Positions 10,977 through 35,969 of a stretch of DNA of 64,000 nucleotides are shown in pieces. Within the stretch, counting starts at the first letter, position 1, and each line of letters starts with the position of its first letter. This DNA is from Acinetobacter lwoffii (GTDB lineage: Bacteria; Pseudomonadota; Gammaproteobacteria; Pseudomonadales; Moraxellaceae). A program made the position numbers and the translations under genes. The stretch is taken from the NCBI RefSeq assembly GCF_019048525.1, contig NZ_CP077369.1, positions 3,162,001 through 3,226,000 on the forward strand. Reading direction: 5' to 3'. The notes beneath the pieces were generated by a model. It was not told the DNA's origin, searched no databases, and saw nothing but the letters and a program-made list of their open reading frames with translations.

Positions 10977-11051
10977 AGGGGTATCGCCAAGTGGTAAGGC
11001 ACCGGGTTTTGATCTCGGCATCCGTTGGTTCGAATCCAGCTACCCCTGCCA
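10977..11051 (+). tRNA. tRNA-Gln(UUG), copy 1
   Basis: A 75-nt cloverleaf with encoded CCA. The acceptor stem AGGGGTA pairs with TACCCCT, the D arm is GCC/GGC, the anticodon loop TTTTGAT carries TTG, and the T loop is TTCGAAT. It starts 2 nt after the ispE stop codon. Confidence 0.96.
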
Positions 11052-11077
11052 TTTTTCACCTGTAGATGTACTGTATT

Positions 11078-11152
11078 AGGGGTATCGCCAAGTGGTAAGG
11101 CACCGGGTTTTGATCTCGGCATCCGTTGGTTCGAATCCAGCTACCCCTGCCA
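11078..11152 (+). tRNA. tRNA-Gln(UUG), copy 2
   Basis: Identical over 75 nt to copy 1, with the same TTG anticodon and encoded CCA. It lies 26 nt downstream. Confidence 0.96.
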
Positions 11153-11170
11153 TCTTACAGTCATCAAATT

Positions 11171-11245
11171 AGGGGCGTCGCCAAGTGGTAAGGCACCGGG
11201 TTTTGATCTCGGCATCCGTTGGTTCGAATCCAGCCGCCCCTGCCA
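11171..11245 (+). tRNA. tRNA-Gln(UUG), copy 3 (variant acceptor stem)
   Basis: Same as the other copies except in the acceptor stem. AGGGGCG pairs with CGCCCCT, so base pairs 6 and 7 are changed on both sides and pairing is kept. The anticodon is TTG and CCA is encoded. Confidence 0.96.
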
Positions 11246-11337
11246 TTTTCTCGAAAAAAGACAGAACACTCATTTGCTGTAAGACTGTTAATTTACCTTG
11301 ACACTTTACCGCAAAAATATTAAAGTTCTGCCGCATT

Positions 11338-11412
11338 AGGGGTATCGCCAAGTGGTAAGGCACCGGGTTTTGATCTCGGCATCCGTTGGTTCGAATCCAG
11401 CTACCCCTGCCA
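11338..11412 (+). tRNA. tRNA-Gln(UUG), copy 4
   Basis: Identical to copies 1 and 2. It lies 92 nt after copy 3 and 36 nt before the prs start codon. Confidence 0.96.
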
Positions 11413-17096: not shown

Positions 17097-17118
17097 AAAA
17101 AAAGAGGACTTAGTCCTC
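17097..17118 (-). terminator. Terminator overlapping the stop codon of the DUF1289 gene
   Basis: On the minus strand GAGGAC-TAA-GTCCTC is followed by seven Ts. The three-base loop is the TAA stop codon of the gene at 17110, so termination begins inside the coding sequence. Confidence 0.75.
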
Positions 17119-17595
17119 CTCTTGTATATGAATCAGATGCTGACTGATACCGTCTGCCCGCAGAAAAGCCAGATCATAACTGGCAGTAGCCAAGGCCAAG
17201 ATCCGGCGCTCAAACTCATCCCACAACGGACGCACCTGCTTATAATGGATGGCCAAACCACTATCGTCGGTAAAATGCCGATTTTTTTCACACAGCTTTA
17301 AAGCATGATACAGCTTGCGCCCTTTGGAAGCATCATCACGCAAGCGCACCCGTTTCGACAGCACAAAGGCCTGCACTTTGACAAGATCGGCATGCGGTAA
17401 CAATGGCACCAGAATCTGATCCAGCTGTGCATCCAGTCGCTGCCACACAGCTCCATGCTGCTCAGCACTATACGTATTCCAGTGAATCACTTCATGATTA
17501 AAACGGCGACAACCACGACATACCGCATCACCAAATACGGTCGAGCAACGCCCTGCACATGGGGTTAAAGACGCAATACGACGATCTGAACTCAA
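17110..17595 (-). CDS. DUF1289 cysteine-motif protein with C-terminal extension
   Basis: The N-terminal part has the DUF1289 pattern PCAGRCSTVFGDAVCRGCRR, four Cys residues that may bind metal, followed by FNHEVIHWNTY. About 110 further helical residues follow that I do not recognise. The frame is open to an ATG at 17661, but a GGAG six bases before a TTG at 17593-17595 gives a start right before the domain (SSDRRIAS), as in other members. The function is unknown. The stop codon sits in a terminator loop. Confidence 0.7.
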   Translation of the reverse strand: MSSDRRIASLTPCAGRCSTVFGDAVCRGCRRFNHEVIHWNTYSAEQHGAVWQRLDAQLDQILVPLLPHADLVKVQAFVLSKRVRLRDDASKGRKLYHALKLCEKNRHFTDDSGLAIHYKQVRPLWDEFERRILALATASYDLAFLRADGISQHLIHIQEED

Positions 17596-17784
17596 AACAC
17601 ACTCCAAAGATACTGCAACTTTCAGTATCTGCATCACTGCACAAAATCCTGGGCCGGGCATGACTATACACGCTCTCTCCCATGAATTGAAGCCTGTTAA
17701 AAGACTTGCGTTTTACTCGCTTATTCACTCGAATCAAGCTAAAATATGCGCCTTTCAAATTATCATGCTACGTTGGAGTATTCC

Positions 17785-18759: not shown

Positions 18760-20151
18760 TAATGCCAGTCAGTTAAGAAATTGACTGGCATTTTCTTGGG
18801 TATTTCTGCGGTTTTCCTTTCACAACTCGTGGGCAACTTCTAACCCTTCTCTCAGGCAAAACATACCTCCTCGATTTCTCCAGTAAACTTTCTAGATGTT
18901 TAGGTAAATTCCCTGCGGAGTCTAAAGAATCAAATCTTAATATATTCAGGATGCTGATAGAGGCAATATGAAAGCTGATTCTCAAAGGACTGACTTTTGC
19001 ACGTTGAGCCATATGTTTCATTTGTCTTCTTAGAATATTATAGGCAATGAAGACCCCCCATAATTCTTGATAAATTAAATCAGGTTGCTTGCTCCTCAAA
19101 TGCTTACCTTCCTGTAAATCACTTTTGATTTCTCGGTAACACATTTCTATTTCCCAGCGCTGGGCATAAAGCTTCGCCAAGCCTATCAGTGGATATGCCT
19201 TTGAATCCATTAATGAAGTGATATAACGTCTAATTTTCCCTGCCTGCTCAACTTCAATCAAACGCGCTTCCCAATATTCTCCTAATGATGGATTTAGCTT
19301 CCTGGCTCTAGCTGAAAGAGGCATTTTGATTTGAAAGTCATGCGGGGAATTACGTTTAATGATCTCATAGCGTAAATTATCTTTTGCTCTCATTAACCAA
19401 TGACTGGCTTCTACTCGTGTTTGCCAGTCAATCAAGAAATCAGCAGAGAAATAGGCTCGATCAAACAAGGTAATACTATGCGATGGAGGACATAATCGAT
19501 TTGCCAGTGTAAGTTCACCCTGATCCATGCTACCTATTTGGGCATCAATGATTTCATGGGTGCTGGTATTTACCAGGCAGGTTGCTCTCACTTGTGGATA
19601 AGGGGCTGCAGCGGTTTTACCCTTAGATGAGCCAAAGTGTTCAAAATTCTCGTCTGTATAAGGCATAGACCAAACCACCCCGTCAACAGCACATACACTA
19701 AGGCCATGAAAGTTTGAGTATTGCTGTTGGGATTCTTCAAACCAGGCTTGGCTGAGTAGAGAAAACAAGGTATTCAAGGGCTCTCGTCCTAAACGTTGTC
19801 GTGCTTGCACTGCTGCACTGGGGACACAATATTCTGTTGTACCAAACACAAGTTTTAGTTGCTCTACGACATACCCGATCGGTTGATCTCGAAATAGGGC
19901 AAGCCCAATTACCAGCCATACCACATGTTCGGCAGGTAATTTTCTTCTCCTGATAGAAGCCTTACCTGTTTGATGTAGGCTTTCTTTAATCCAGTTTAAA
20001 TCAATGAGTTCACTGAAATGGCTGAGTGAAGGCAAAGAATGTTGAAGGGTGCAATCTAAATTTTCAGATAAAGTCATAAAAAAAATGAGCGTATTGGCAT
20101 ACACTCATTTTTACTACATTTTTCTAATGTCTGCTTAACTGACTGGCATTA
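18760..20151 (-). mobile_element. IS4-family insertion sequence, complete, 1392 bp
   Basis: Perfect 18-bp terminal inverted repeats TAATGCCAGTCAGTTAAG bound a single transposase gene and are flanked by a 10-bp direct repeat. Intact ends, intact transposase and an exact duplication suggest a recent, possibly active insertion. I cannot give the ISfinder name without a search. Confidence 0.92.
18773..20104 (-). CDS. IS4-family DDE transposase
   Basis: A 443-residue transposase. The IS4 family C-terminal signature Y-x2-R-x3-E-x6-K is exact in YAQRWEIEMCYREIK and contains the catalytic Glu. The first catalytic Asp lies in the VDGVVWSMP region and the second in TLFDRAYFSADF. A start at the ATG at 20077 (protein beginning MTLSENLD) is equally possible, since neither start has a clear ribosome binding site. 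It fills nearly the whole element. Confidence 0.93.
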   Translation of the reverse strand: MYANTLIFFMTLSENLDCTLQHSLPSLSHFSELIDLNWIKESLHQTGKASIRRRKLPAEHVVWLVIGLALFRDQPIGYVVEQLKLVFGTTEYCVPSAAVQARQRLGREPLNTLFSLLSQAWFEESQQQYSNFHGLSVCAVDGVVWSMPYTDENFEHFGSSKGKTAAAPYPQVRATCLVNTSTHEIIDAQIGSMDQGELTLANRLCPPSHSITLFDRAYFSADFLIDWQTRVEASHWLMRAKDNLRYEIIKRNSPHDFQIKMPLSARARKLNPSLGEYWEARLIEVEQAGKIRRYITSLMDSKAYPLIGLAKLYAQRWEIEMCYREIKSDLQEGKHLRSKQPDLIYQELWGVFIAYNILRRQMKHMAQRAKVSPLRISFHIASISILNILRFDSLDSAGNLPKHLESLLEKSRRYVLPERRVRSCPRVVKGKPQKYPRKCQSIS

Positions 20152-30262: not shown

Positions 30263-30652
30263 ATGGAACATAAACGAGAACAACGAGTTAAACGTACACA
30301 ACGTGACTATAGCTTTGCCTTTAAAATGATGGTGGTACATGAAGTAGAAAAAGGGCAAATTACTTATAAGCAAGCTCAGGCAAAATATGGTATTCAAGGA
30401 AGATCAACTGTGCTGGTATGGTTACGCAAGCACGGACAACAGGACTGGACTTCGAATATGCCGACTTCTTCTAAACGCCAATTGACACCCCAACAACGAA
30501 TCCGCCAATTAGAAAAGCAGTTAGCCGCAGAAAAGCTTAAAACTGAATTTATTCAGGATGTGATTTATCACATTGATAAAGAATGTGGGACTGATCTTGG
30601 AAAAAAGTATACCGAGCACGTTTCAAAGATTGGCAAAGCCAAAGAAGACTAA
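30263..30652 (+). CDS. IS3-family OrfA (helix-turn-helix protein)
   Basis: A 129-residue DNA-binding OrfA. The helix-turn-helix spans about residues 13-55 (ITYKQAQAKYGIQGRSTVLVWLRK) and a leucine-zipper-like coiled coil follows (IRQLEKQLAAEKLKTEFIQDV). A slippery A AAA AAG lies at 30601-30607 in the right frame. Ribosomes slipping back one base there enter the orfB frame, giving the OrfAB transposase. Confidence 0.92.
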   Translation: MEHKREQRVKRTQRDYSFAFKMMVVHEVEKGQITYKQAQAKYGIQGRSTVLVWLRKHGQQDWTSNMPTSSKRQLTPQQRIRQLEKQLAAEKLKTEFIQDVIYHIDKECGTDLGKKYTEHVSKIGKAKED

Positions 30653-30675
30653 GCGTTTCACGTTATTGTCAGTGG

Positions 30676-31485
30676 TTGGGAATCACCCGACAAGCTTATT
30701 ATCAAGCAGAAAAACGTGCTCAAATGACTGCACAAGCAACTGAACAAATACTTGAGTTGGTTATGGAATATCGCTGTCTCATGCCAAGTATCGGAACACG
30801 TAAGCTGTATTGGCTTATTAAAGGCAAATTGTTGCAACGTGGTTTAAAGTGTGGACGGGATCAGTTATTTAAAATATTGAAAGAAAATAACTTATTGATT
30901 CGCCCTAAGCGTCGCTATACAAAAACTACGGATAGCAAGCATTGGATGAAGAAGCATCCAAATTTATTAAAGGATTATTCAGCGGTGCAAGCCAATGAAG
31001 TCTTTGTTAGTGATATTACCTATGTTGAGAGTGCTGAAGGTGTGCATTATTTATCCTTGGTGACAGATGCTTATACCCGACAGATTAAAGGTTATAAGTT
31101 ATCGAATGATATGCGTGCAGAGAATGTTGTGCAGGCACTACATATGGCGATGCAGCATGTGACAGATCGGGCAGCCAGGATGATTCACCATTCAGACAGA
31201 GGCTCTCAGTATTGCTCTGAGCTATATCAATCGGCATTGCGCCATTATGGGATATGTCCTTCCATGACAGATGGCAAGGACTGTTATCAGAATGCATTAG
31301 CAGAGCGAATTAATGGAATATTAAAGCAGGAGTTTTTAACCACGCGATGTCAAACCATGAAGGAGTTAGATCACTTAATTGCGGAATCTATCATGATTTA
31401 CAATTGTTATAGACCGCATTTAAGTTTAAATATGAACACCCCGAATCAGATGTATGAGCAAACAAAAACCGAGCTAATTGCTTAA
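30676..31485 (+). CDS. IS3-family OrfB (DDE transposase domain)
   Basis: The catalytic half, 269 residues from a TTG at 30676; in practice it is probably made mainly as the OrfAB fusion, because the frame is open back to the slippery site at 30601. The retroviral-integrase-like core shows VSDITYVESAEGVHYLS (first Asp), HSDRGSQYCSELY (second Asp) and NALAERINGILKQEFL (Glu). All three acidic residues are present, so the enzyme looks functional. Confidence 0.92.
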   Translation: MGITRQAYYQAEKRAQMTAQATEQILELVMEYRCLMPSIGTRKLYWLIKGKLLQRGLKCGRDQLFKILKENNLLIRPKRRYTKTTDSKHWMKKHPNLLKDYSAVQANEVFVSDITYVESAEGVHYLSLVTDAYTRQIKGYKLSNDMRAENVVQALHMAMQHVTDRAARMIHHSDRGSQYCSELYQSALRHYGICPSMTDGKDCYQNALAERINGILKQEFLTTRCQTMKELDHLIAESIMIYNCYRPHLSLNMNTPNQMYEQTKTELIA

Positions 31486-31541
31486 CTCGGTTTGAAGTGG
31501 AATACTGTCAATCTATTTCAGGACAAGACACAAATTTCAGC

Positions 31542-32018
31542 TTAAAGCGTTTTAAAACCTTGCTGACGCCAAGCTTCGTAGACAATTACTGCAGTGGCAT
31601 TCGACAAGTTCAAACTTCGGGAGTTTTCTGCCATCGGTAAACGAATCCAGTGCTTTTGCGGAAACATCATACGAACATGTTCAGGCAGACCACGAGTTTC
31701 CGGACCCATTAACAAGGCCACAGGACGGTTTAAATCCGAAGTATGCGGTGTTTCAGAACCTTTGGTGGTCAATGGATAGATTGCATCCAGCCCAATGCCT
31801 TTGCTTGCCAAATCGGCCAGACAGTCTTCGATGTTTTCCCAAATCTGCATATTGGCATATTCGTGATAATCCAGACCGGCACGTTTCAGCTTTTTGTCAT
31901 CCAACTCAAAACCCAGCGGCTTGACCAGATGTAACTGTGCTCCTGTATTGGCACACAGACGAATAATATTGCCTGTATTTGCAGGAATTTCAGGCTCATA
32001 TAAAACAACGTGGATCAC
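31542..32018 (-). CDS. trmL: tRNA (cytidine(34)-2'-O)-methyltransferase TrmL
   Basis: TrmL methylates the 2'-OH of nucleotide 34 in tRNA-Leu isoacceptors. The 158-residue SPOUT enzyme has the knot motifs [14 protein letters not shown] and [25 protein letters not shown] and the start [20 protein letters not shown]. The start is a GTG. The upstream region, from 25 bp before the start, is a 58-bp tandem repeat array that separates it from cysG on the same strand. An IS3 element lies 12 bp past its stop. Confidence 0.95.
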
Positions 32019-32042
32019 AGCTTACTCACTCAATATATTTAA

Positions 32043-32387
32043 TTCAGACACAACATTCGCCTTGCGCTCGGGCAAAGCAGTGCTTTGCTTATCCTCTTAC
32101 TTCAGGCCTAGCCTTCGCCTTGCGCTCGGGCAAAGCAGTGCTTTGCTTATCCTCTTACTTCAGGCCTAGCCTTCGTCTTGCGCTCGGGGCAAAGCAGTGC
32201 TTTGCTTATCCTCTTACTTCAGGCACAGCCTTCGTCTTGCGCTCGGACAAAGCAGTGCTTTGCTTATCCTCTTACTTCAGGCACAGCCTTCGTCTTGCGC
32301 TCGGACAAAGCAGTGCTTTGCTTATCCTCTTACTTCAGGCACAGCCTTCGTCTTGCGCTCGGACAAAGCAGTGCTTTGCTTATCCTC
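32043..32387. repeat. Tandem array of about six 58-bp repeats between cysG and trmL
   Basis: Repeat units start at 32056, 32114, 32172, 32231, 32289 and 32347 (TTCGYCTTGCG...). Spacing is 58, 58, 59, 58 and 58 bp; the 59 comes from one extra G in unit 3. A degenerate partial unit precedes at 32043. Each unit holds the dyad CAAAGC-AGT-GCTTTG. Units 4-6 are identical where comparable, while units 1-3 differ at a few bases. The cysG stop codon (32380-32382) lies inside the last unit. All three plus-strand frames are largely stop-free, which creates spurious reading frames. Confidence 0.95.
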
Positions 32388-33762
32388 GCTCATGCCATTG
32401 CAATTGTTCACGTAAGCGTACAACTTCACCAATAATGGTCAAAGTCGGGGCTTGAATCTGATGTTCGGACACTTTGGATGCAATATCAGCAAGCGTTCCT
32501 ACTACAACTTTCTGTTCAGGCGTCGTACCTTTAGAAACCAAGGCCACTGGCATGTCGGCTCGCTGACCATGAGCGATTAATTCTGCACAGATTTTCTCCA
32601 GTCCCACCAACCCCATATAAAGCACTAAGGTCTGGTTTTCATAGACCAACTCACTCCAAGGCAATTCTGGCGAACCTTCTTTTAAGTGACCGGTCAGGAA
32701 ACGCACACTTTGCGCATAATCACGATGGGTTAATGGAATACCGGCATAGGCTGAACATCCTGAAGCTGCGGTAATCCCTGGAACCACCTGGAAAGTAATC
32801 CCAGCAGCGAATAGCTCTTCAATCTCTTCGCCGCCACGCCCGAATATAAATGGATCACCACCTTTCAGACGGCAAACCCGCTTTCCTTCACTGGCATATT
32901 TGACCAATAAAGCATTAATCCCATCTTGCGGAACCGCATGATTGGAACGCGCCTTACCCACATAGATCTTTTCCGCATCGCGGCGGCACAGCTCCATAAT
33001 TGGCGCTGAGACCAGTCGGTCGTAAATCACCACATCGGCTTGCTGCATCAAACGTAAGGCTTTTAAGGTCAACAATTCTGGATCACCCGGACCCGCACCG
33101 ACCAAGTAGACTTCACCTTTTGGCTTTTGCCACTCTTGTAATGCTTGCTCGATCAGGCGATCTGCTTCCGCGATATTGTCGTTGAACACCTGTTCTTTTA
33201 GCGGACCGGCATATAAATCTTCCCAGAAAATACGGCGTTCATCCGGATTGACAATTTTAGCCTTAACCGTACTGCGCCATTTTCCTGAAAATTCAGCCAG
33301 CTTGCCCATACCATGCGGAATAGCGGCTTCTAACTGAGTACGGATCTGCCGTGATAACACGGGCGACGTACCATTCGATGCGACCGAAATGACCAATGGC
33401 GAACGGTCAATAATCGCAGGCACCATAAATCGGCAATGCGGCGGATCATCAACGCTATTGACCAGGACATTTTCCGCTTCACACAGTTCAAAGACCTGAC
33501 GATTGGTCTCTGCATCGTCAGTTGCCGCAATTACCAGTCGATATGGACGTAATGCAACTTCAGGATGAAAAGCTGCCTGCACATAGTGTCCTTGGCTATT
33601 TTGCACAATTCGCAGCAGACTCTCTTCAATTTCAGGCGCAATCACATGAATGATCGCACCTGCTTTTTGTAGGAGAAGTGCTTTACGGTATGCAATATGT
33701 CCACCACCGACAATCAGACAAGTTTGCTGTTGCAACTTTAACGAGATTGGAAAAATATCCAC
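32380..33762 (-). CDS. cysG: Siroheme synthase CysG (trifunctional)
   Basis: CysG converts uroporphyrinogen III to siroheme, the cofactor of sulfite and nitrite reductases. The 460-residue protein has an N-terminal dehydrogenase/ferrochelatase half (GGGHIAYRKALLLQKAG near residue 18, VASNGTSPVLSRQIR near 130). The C-terminal uroporphyrinogen methyltransferase follows, with VGAGPGDPELLTLKALR and RLKGGDPFIFGRGGEE. The start is a GTG with GAGG upstream. The last codons (GAGGATAA) are part of the repeat unit that follows. It lies 73 bp after serS on the same strand. Confidence 0.95.
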   Translation of the reverse strand: MDIFPISLKLQQQTCLIVGGGHIAYRKALLLQKAGAIIHVIAPEIEESLLRIVQNSQGHYVQAAFHPEVALRPYRLVIAATDDAETNRQVFELCEAENVLVNSVDDPPHCRFMVPAIIDRSPLVISVASNGTSPVLSRQIRTQLEAAIPHGMGKLAEFSGKWRSTVKAKIVNPDERRIFWEDLYAGPLKEQVFNDNIAEADRLIEQALQEWQKPKGEVYLVGAGPGDPELLTLKALRLMQQADVVIYDRLVSAPIMELCRRDAEKIYVGKARSNHAVPQDGINALLVKYASEGKRVCRLKGGDPFIFGRGGEEIEELFAAGITFQVVPGITAASGCSAYAGIPLTHRDYAQSVRFLTGHLKEGSPELPWSELVYENQTLVLYMGLVGLEKICAELIAHGQRADMPVALVSKGTTPEQKVVVGTLADIASKVSEHQIQAPTLTIIGEVVRLREQLQWHERG

Positions 33763-33835
33763 GAACTACCTCAAAATTTTAAATCTGACTGTCTATGCAA
33801 TTTTCATGCACATTTAGGGATGCTGAGATCGACAA

Positions 33836-35969
<2,134 letters not shown>

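Follow-up and report, generated by a model that had tools for sequence, protein, structure and literature searches.

The gap between cysG and trmL in Acinetobacter of the lwoffii group contains a head-to-tail array of 58-bp units on the minus strand, and the stop codon of cysG lies within it. The locus raises the question of what the repeated unit is and why it overlaps the end of cysG. The window (the whole stretch of DNA that was analysed) consists of 64,000 nucleotides from Acinetobacter lwoffii, and the array occupies 32039..32387 of it as six contiguous units. The features of the locus are as follows.

32039..32387, minus strand: whole array, six 58/59-bp units (Tandem Repeats Finder)
32330..32387, minus strand: unit 1 (58 bp), adjoins cysG and holds the cysG stop codon
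32272..32329, minus strand: unit 2 (58 bp), same sequence as unit 1
32214..32271, minus strand: unit 3 (58 bp), same sequence as unit 1
32155..32213, minus strand: unit 4 (59 bp), extra C; CCCC variant common to genomes G055, G054, and G139
32097..32154, minus strand: unit 5 (58 bp)
32039..32096, minus strand: unit 6 (58 bp), trmL-proximal, hairpin 2 part diverged
32332..32392, minus strand: first full 61-nt element copy (covariance model R1), from the TGAG inside cysG to the end of hairpin 2
32354..32392, minus strand: hairpin 1 of the first copy, outer stem with tandem G.A, 5' bulge ATAA, inner stem-loop GCAAAGCACTGCTTTGT
32332..32351, minus strand: hairpin 2 of the first copy, AC-GA-AGGC-TGT-GCCT-GAA-GT (from folding)
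32380..32382, minus strand: cysG stop codon TAA, element positions 11-13, 5' bulge of hairpin 1
32380..33762, minus strand: cysG (siroheme synthase), C-terminus ..LQWHERG*; NCBIfam NF007922, E 1e-191, above cutoff
31542..32018, minus strand: trmL (tRNA 2'-O-methyltransferase), best NCBIfam match TIGR00185, E 2.2e-53
32019..32038, minus strand: spacer between the array and the start of trmL, near-constant across the lwoffii group at any unit number

Tandem Repeats Finder reported 32039-32387 with a period of 58, 6.0 copies, 95% matches, and a score of 598. Splitting of the sequence gave unit lengths of 58, 58, 58, 59, 58, and 58 bp in order from cysG, in agreement with a sequence-only reading of the window that had counted about six 58-bp units with one of 59. 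That reading had also placed the cysG stop codon inside the unit nearest cysG, where TAA is found at 32380-32382, and had described the units near cysG as identical and the far ones as diverged. Units 1-3 are indeed identical and the trmL-proximal unit is the most diverged, and unit 6 has the lowest covariance-model score among the six units (47.6 bits). The first full copy, at 3194332-3194392 of the contig, matches model R1 with 81.3 bits (E 2.6e-16), and its minimum free energy (MFE) fold agrees with the structure of hairpin 1 in the outer stem and nearly so in the inner stem. The identity of TrmL is given with a score of 180.2 bits against TIGR00185, a little under the curated cutoff of 190.6.

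The dyad CAAAGCAGTGCTTTGC with up to three mismatches has 12 matches in the window, which correspond to six places on both strands and are all inside the array, and 100 dinucleotide shuffles gave 1.27 matches (sd 1.20, largest 5). The dyad that had been noticed in every unit is thus present in six places; the outer stem and the second hairpin had been missed. No CRISPR spacers are present in the array, whose units are contiguous and alike over their whole length, and a CRISPR array, which has unique spacers between constant repeats, was rejected as the earlier reading had done. Folding of the whole array as one RNA was uninformative (z-score -0.75).

Other observations concern the surroundings. 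An IS3-family insertion sequence with separate orfA and orfB ORFs lies at 30263-31485, directly downstream of trmL on the opposite strand. The cysG-trmL gap at two other Acinetobacter loci (L160 and L169) is about 0.7 kb longer than most and of near-equal length, and perhaps holds a small extra gene. Elsewhere in the window, at 10977-11412, there are four tandem tRNA-Gln(TTG) genes, three of them inside a repeat array of 93-101 bp.

Each unit of the array is a copy of a dispersed repeat of about 61 nt with two hairpins, and the family is distributed across the genus. The copies that were read begin with TGAG, followed by an outer stem, a 5' bulge (often ATAA, GTAA, or ATTA), an inner stem-loop, and the other arm of the outer stem. 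GCAAG and the second hairpin follow, and many copies end with GAGT or GAAGT. The 5' bulge is absent in a few copies, L036, L038, and L054 among them, in which the outer and inner stems are continuous. The inner dyad was found in 89 of 175 Acinetobacter genomes and the reversed control pattern in one of 175. The search for single units that the sequence-only reading had proposed found the inner dyad elsewhere in the window's own genome as well.

Model R1 was built from 21 copies and matches 160 of the 175 genomes at E<=0.01. The number of matches per positive genome runs from at least 1 to at least 28, as lower bounds obtained by scoring the best 31 candidates of each genome. Two scans of the window's own genome gave at least 14 and at least 16 matches at E<=0.01, and 23 matches at E<=1 were obtained when 150 candidates were scored. 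The sample of 194 genomes of the order has 11 with matches, the window's own genome among them. Four of these belong to another genus of the same family (g3) and have strong matches (best E 7e-8 or better); the remaining six have weak matches (E 1.9e-5 or worse). Three copies in one genome of genus g3 (G349) have identical R1 scores. Rfam covariance models gave no match at E<=1 across 31400-33000, and no description of the two-hairpin family was found in the titles and opening abstract lines of the open-licence PMC papers listed, from which we do not claim that it is absent from print.

Tandem arrays are also present at four other loci with periods of 57-62 bp, and another was identified in G120 with a spacing of 60-62 bp. 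Downstream of a gene of 90-100 aa, which we take to be minE, the copy or array at L308 (of G120), L223, and L220 comes after GGCAAAATATGAG. Farther on, past the copy, L308 and L007 have a matching CTCATATTTT(T)GCC, an arrangement that would fit insertion of the element into the loop of an earlier hairpin.

Compensatory changes maintain both hairpins. The inner stem of the cysG units is GCAAAGC/GCTTTG[CT] in the lwoffii group, GCAACGAT/ATCGTTGC in A. sichuanensis, GAAAAAC/GTTTTTC in A. stercoris, GCAGCGAT/ATCGCTGC in A. gyllenbergii, and GCAGAAC/GTTCTGC in A. ihumii. Covariation was scored in three alignments, and all three scores lie above every shuffle and every slid control. Alignment A1 consists of 13 first cysG units (the window, G052, and 11 others) and five later units. 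It leaves out further near-identical first units of the lwoffii group and the degenerate later units of G074, A. amyesii, A. kookii, and A. stercoris, which are included in the comparison of first and later units below. It scored 0.274 against 0.137 when shuffled (0 of 500 as high), with two-sided change in 7 of 16 pairs; further pair types in A1 were not beyond the shuffles (83 of 500). Alignment A2, the cysG units with 12 paralogues, scored 0.331 against 0.138 (0 of 500) with two-sided change in 17 of 23 pairs, where the pairing of the paralogues is biased upward because they were taken from a list already filtered for hairpins. Alignment A3, with 113 distinct model-found copies fitted to the covariance model, scored 0.381 against 0.143 (0 of 500), with two-sided change in 21 of 23 pairs.

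The mismatches also differ between strands. The model-found copies have 53 G.U against 25 A.C cells and 192 G.A against 19 U.C cells, with cells that are not independent; the cysG set alone shows no excess of G.U (8 G.U against 7 A.C). The excess of G.A and G.U over their opposite-strand equivalents favours folding of the upstream gene's own strand, and the hairpins that had been proposed for the cysG-trmL coding strand are supported. The first unit of the window alone does not fold into a more stable structure than its shuffles (z -1.18; 29 of 200 as stable), and five other copies folded alone are more stable than theirs (0-3 of 200 as stable). Two-sided changes can also stem from templated correction of imperfect palindromes in DNA.

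The element was found at cysG-trmL in 12 of the 30 nearest genomes and in 9 of the 55 readable loci among 56 named records, with one locus (L130) common to both sets. Comparable arrays are present in other genomes with variable copy number, which a count in other strains had been proposed to examine. Eight close genomes of the lwoffii group have 6, 5, 5, 4, 3, 1, 1, and 1 units, and in the ninth (G053) the contig breaks inside the array. The window's genome (G000) and G055 have coding flanks identical over 1390 bp and carry six and five units, respectively; unit number thus varies between near-identical genomes, as in a VNTR. Apart from one base, the two arrays are distinguished by a single identical unit next to cysG, which supports the growth from the cysG end that had been suggested. 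G139 has one unit, yet it groups with G000 and G055 (support 100/98) and has the CCCC of the 59-bp variant, so its array has probably contracted.

The first, stop-bearing unit keeps its hairpin in all 19 genomes that were read. The MFE of the inner hairpin has a mean of -8.5 kcal/mol in the 19 first units and of -3.7 in 17 later units outside the lwoffii group (Mann-Whitney p 3.6e-5, with rows that are not independent). Among the seven diverged arrays, the first unit folds better than the later ones in G074, G156, A. kookii, and A. amyesii, the two are equal in A. ihumii, and the later units are better on average in G039 and A. stercoris. The 18 later units of the lwoffii group are undecayed (mean -8.1 kcal/mol). 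We regard the array, on balance, as a VNTR that probably grew from one copy of the dispersed two-hairpin element, as part of the whole explanation given below.

The position of the stop codon was surveyed in 93 distinct copies from 89 fetched loci, which come mostly from the top of the score list and are not a random sample. An upstream ORF (>=60 aa) ends inside the element in 44 of the 93 copies, which belong to nine gene families: cysG, argS, a peroxiredoxin, a DUF454-like gene, trmD, the gene of an oxidative damage protection protein (presumably yggX), a type III sulfide:quinone reductase-like gene, ruvB, and an SDR-like gene. For the DUF454, reductase, and SDR assignments, the score falls short of the curated cutoff of the best-matching family. 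All 44 copies are in one frame, NNT-GAG-..., in which the T of TGAG is the third codon base and GAG is the next codon. In 38 of these copies the stop codon occupies element positions 11-13, mostly as TAA, with TGA in three trmD copies. Among the peroxiredoxin and yggX groups, four copies have the stop at +7 or +10, and in two SDR copies the reading frame continues to +64; none of the six departs from the common frame. The stop usually lies in the 5' bulge of hairpin 1 in eight of the nine families. The chance that nine families agree under three equal frames is about 1.5e-4. A stop codon within the unit is thus not peculiar to cysG, a point that the earlier reading had missed: at other loci, copies of the element overlap the ends of unrelated genes, again in this frame.

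The other 49 copies have no ORF of at least 60 aa ending inside them, so the position of the stop codon inside the element is not universal. An ORF ends upstream of 31 of these copies, 18 of which lie 43-44 nt after an ORF of 90-100 aa that we again assume to be minE; the remaining 18 of the 49 have none nearby either. Five of six distinct copies in genus g3 are in the same frame of the upstream ORF, and the sixth has no such ORF. The g3 copies at L353, L354, L363, L364, and L369 are at the end of, or inside, ORFs, and the three ORFs tested (L353, L364, and L369) are IS3-type orfA (HTH_Tnp_1) or orfB (rve).

The element begins at, or uses, native TGAG codons, and either could be the cause. Of 30 ruvB ends that were read, 25 have Pro-Pro-Glu codons (CCTGAG or synonyms) followed by various short tails, and the five best-matching ruvB genomes have QR* or PR* after these codons and then an intact or degenerate copy. 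Of 15 genomes without any R1 match, 11 had a readable argS end, and these ends are P-x-x-M-stop, so at argS the 5' arm and the stop are native codons that the 3' arm complements.

The ends of cysG without the element were also folded, as 55 unique ends that leave out L115 and L184 (wrongly flagged as element carriers). The mean energy of the fold with the stop open is -8.05 with the true 3' flank against -6.07 when flanks were swapped among species (sd 0.30, lowest -6.93; 0 of 200 swaps as low). The pairs enclosing the stop number 7.69, within the controls (swaps 7.01, largest 8.22; shuffled flank 6.48, largest 7.85). Examples that enclose the stop are AAGTGGTCG-TAAA-CGACCACTT and CAAGGC-TAAG-GCTTTG. 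A hairpin around the cysG stop thus recurs via different sequences, and species that lack the repeat often have one. The 62 ORFs of the window exhibit a smaller tendency, with a stop-enclosing energy of -4.67 against -3.99 in swaps (sd 0.25, lowest -4.65), which is below all 200 swaps, so the stop-enclosing fold is not special to cysG. Despite this tendency, we do not claim a general rule of hairpin-enclosed stop codons. The minus-strand ORFs 18773-20104 and 17110-17661 have strong stop-enclosing hairpins at their ends 18773 and 17110 (-18.8 and -14.1 kcal/mol, respectively), and the hairpin of the latter is followed by a T-run.

The explanation that we favour, with modest confidence, is that the unit is a REP-like RNA element of the 3' end, of which the first copy is retained and the tandem ones are by-products of slippage. 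The first unit would act in cis as a 3'-end structure of the mRNA that is met by the terminating ribosome. The ribosome that ends cysG translation would unwind hairpin 1, and hairpin 2 would stay folded. The element may slow the release of the ribosome, shield the 3' end of the upstream message from exonucleases, or both, and may partly insulate trmL. The extra units would add hairpins and would mostly be by-products of slippage or unequal recombination. A bolder version is tentative and rather doubtful: in Acinetobacter and its relatives, a dedicated stop-codon element would hold the stops of unrelated housekeeping genes in a conserved bulge of a two-hairpin RNA in one frame, where the terminating ribosome, or else a dedicated protein, would read the codon and so set the fate of the message. 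Such an element would spread via TGAG codons, and argS may be its founder.

The same copies could belong to a selfish palindromic repeat with no host function, whose in-frame stop limits damage at gene ends and whose stems are complementary via quasi-palindrome correction or because the folded single strand is a substrate for transposition. The dispersal of copies over many loci, the arrays with periods of 57-62 bp at other loci, and the copies within IS3-family orfA and orfB frames in genus g3 fit this explanation, as does the ruvB copy, whose start at a native TGAG/CCTGAG codon pair resembles a fixed target for insertion. However, no Y1/RAYT transposase was found in the window's genome, Y1 is present in 35 of the 175 genus genomes, and 30 Y1 loci scanned gave no element match. 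The stop-bearing unit also keeps its hairpin while its neighbours often decay, which a purely mutational process does not predict. We consider the selfish repeat possible, with a probability well short of even. Termination or attenuation of transcription between cysG and trmL, whether Rho-dependent or weakly intrinsic, with stronger termination due to the array, is unlikely. The hairpins come directly after the stop, and the coding strand of unit 6 has one terminator-like site (32079-32058), whose tail is poor. However, no U-run follows the hairpins of unit 1, and the sites in 31400-34000 are not clearly beyond shuffles (5 against 2.7, sd 1.8). A plain intrinsic terminator, which consists of a GC hairpin and a U-run, was rejected.

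The sequence-only reading had named a protein-binding array among its options, here a DNA array bound by a protein specific for the dyad CAAAGCA-N-TGCTTTG. This 15-bp palindrome is present in 89 of the 175 genomes, yet its letters vary between species with the pairing kept, the later units of several arrays lose it, and the G.A mismatches are strand-asymmetric, so this explanation is very improbable. It is least probable of all that the unit number is an artefact of assembly, as the contig break inside the array of the related G053 might suggest, given the ordered differences among the units and the presence of the same unit types in G055, G054, and G139.

Should the constant frame and the retention of the first unit be functional, the family would link translation termination to the fate of the mRNA 3' end. 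Important pathogens belong to Acinetobacter, which also includes A. baylyi, a convenient model. The family offers natural experiments, as the same gene is found with no, one, or six units and the stems are swapped by compensatory change. The C-terminal residues PERG, PEQG, and HERG lie within the repeat, and the family calls for caution in annotation and in repeat-based typing.

Several known repeat systems resemble this family in part. The A. baumannii VNTR/MLVA minisatellites have tandem units of similar period and variable number, and the units of Abaum_3530 and Abaum_3002 are 60 and 57 bp (PMC3440325). Abaum_3530 was rejected as the same family: its primer matched one of 175 genomes (G006, one mismatch), and the locus there is an unrelated, coding-looking 60-bp repeat. 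The C4-like multi-copy sRNAs of A. baumannii were set apart by description only, being other structures as described in PMC5320573. The enterobacterial RU-1 (ERIC) and YPAL/RU-2 are also mobile repeat units, and in one reported case the fusion of an RU-1 to a gene's 3' end eliminated the normal stop codon (PMC2759123). They differ in being MITE-like and 103-168 bp long, and the available portion of the same paper describes neither a frame shared by many genes nor tandem arrays.

The CGTC-tagged REPs and the Rickettsia palindromic elements are likewise palindromic repeats, and REPs inside genes and CGTC REPs without a dedicated transposase have been reported (PMC3733652). The element differs from CGTC REPs in sequence and tag, and its copies are at C-termini with their own stop. 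The main text of that paper contains no occurrence of Acinetobacter or Psychrobacter.

There is also a likeness to the REP/BIME of enterobacteria and pseudomonads (GTAG tag, RAYT), which are short dispersed palindromes, some of them just after stops; the dispersed copies bear out the REP-like character that had been suggested for the array. REPs of the REP/RAYT system have a GTAG or CGTC tetranucleotide at one end of the palindrome (PMC3733652), whereas the copies read here begin with TGAG and have two unlike hairpins. No RAYT was found with the element: PF01797 is absent from the window's genome and no Y1 locus of the 30 scanned has an element match, so mobilisation by RAYT/IS200 was rejected. 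REPs exceed 100 copies per genome (PMC2817692); the counts for the element are at least 1 to at least 28 with the best 31 candidates scored. Its stop is often inside in a fixed frame. The element may thus work like REP-type 3' elements, yet it departs from the two REP/RAYT criteria tested, tag and transposase. Stalling of ribosomes is reported for E. coli REPs that lie no more than 15 nt from a stop codon (cited in PMC12306157), and the element is likewise this close in 44 of 93 copies, from nine gene families, in which the stop codon is inside the element itself.
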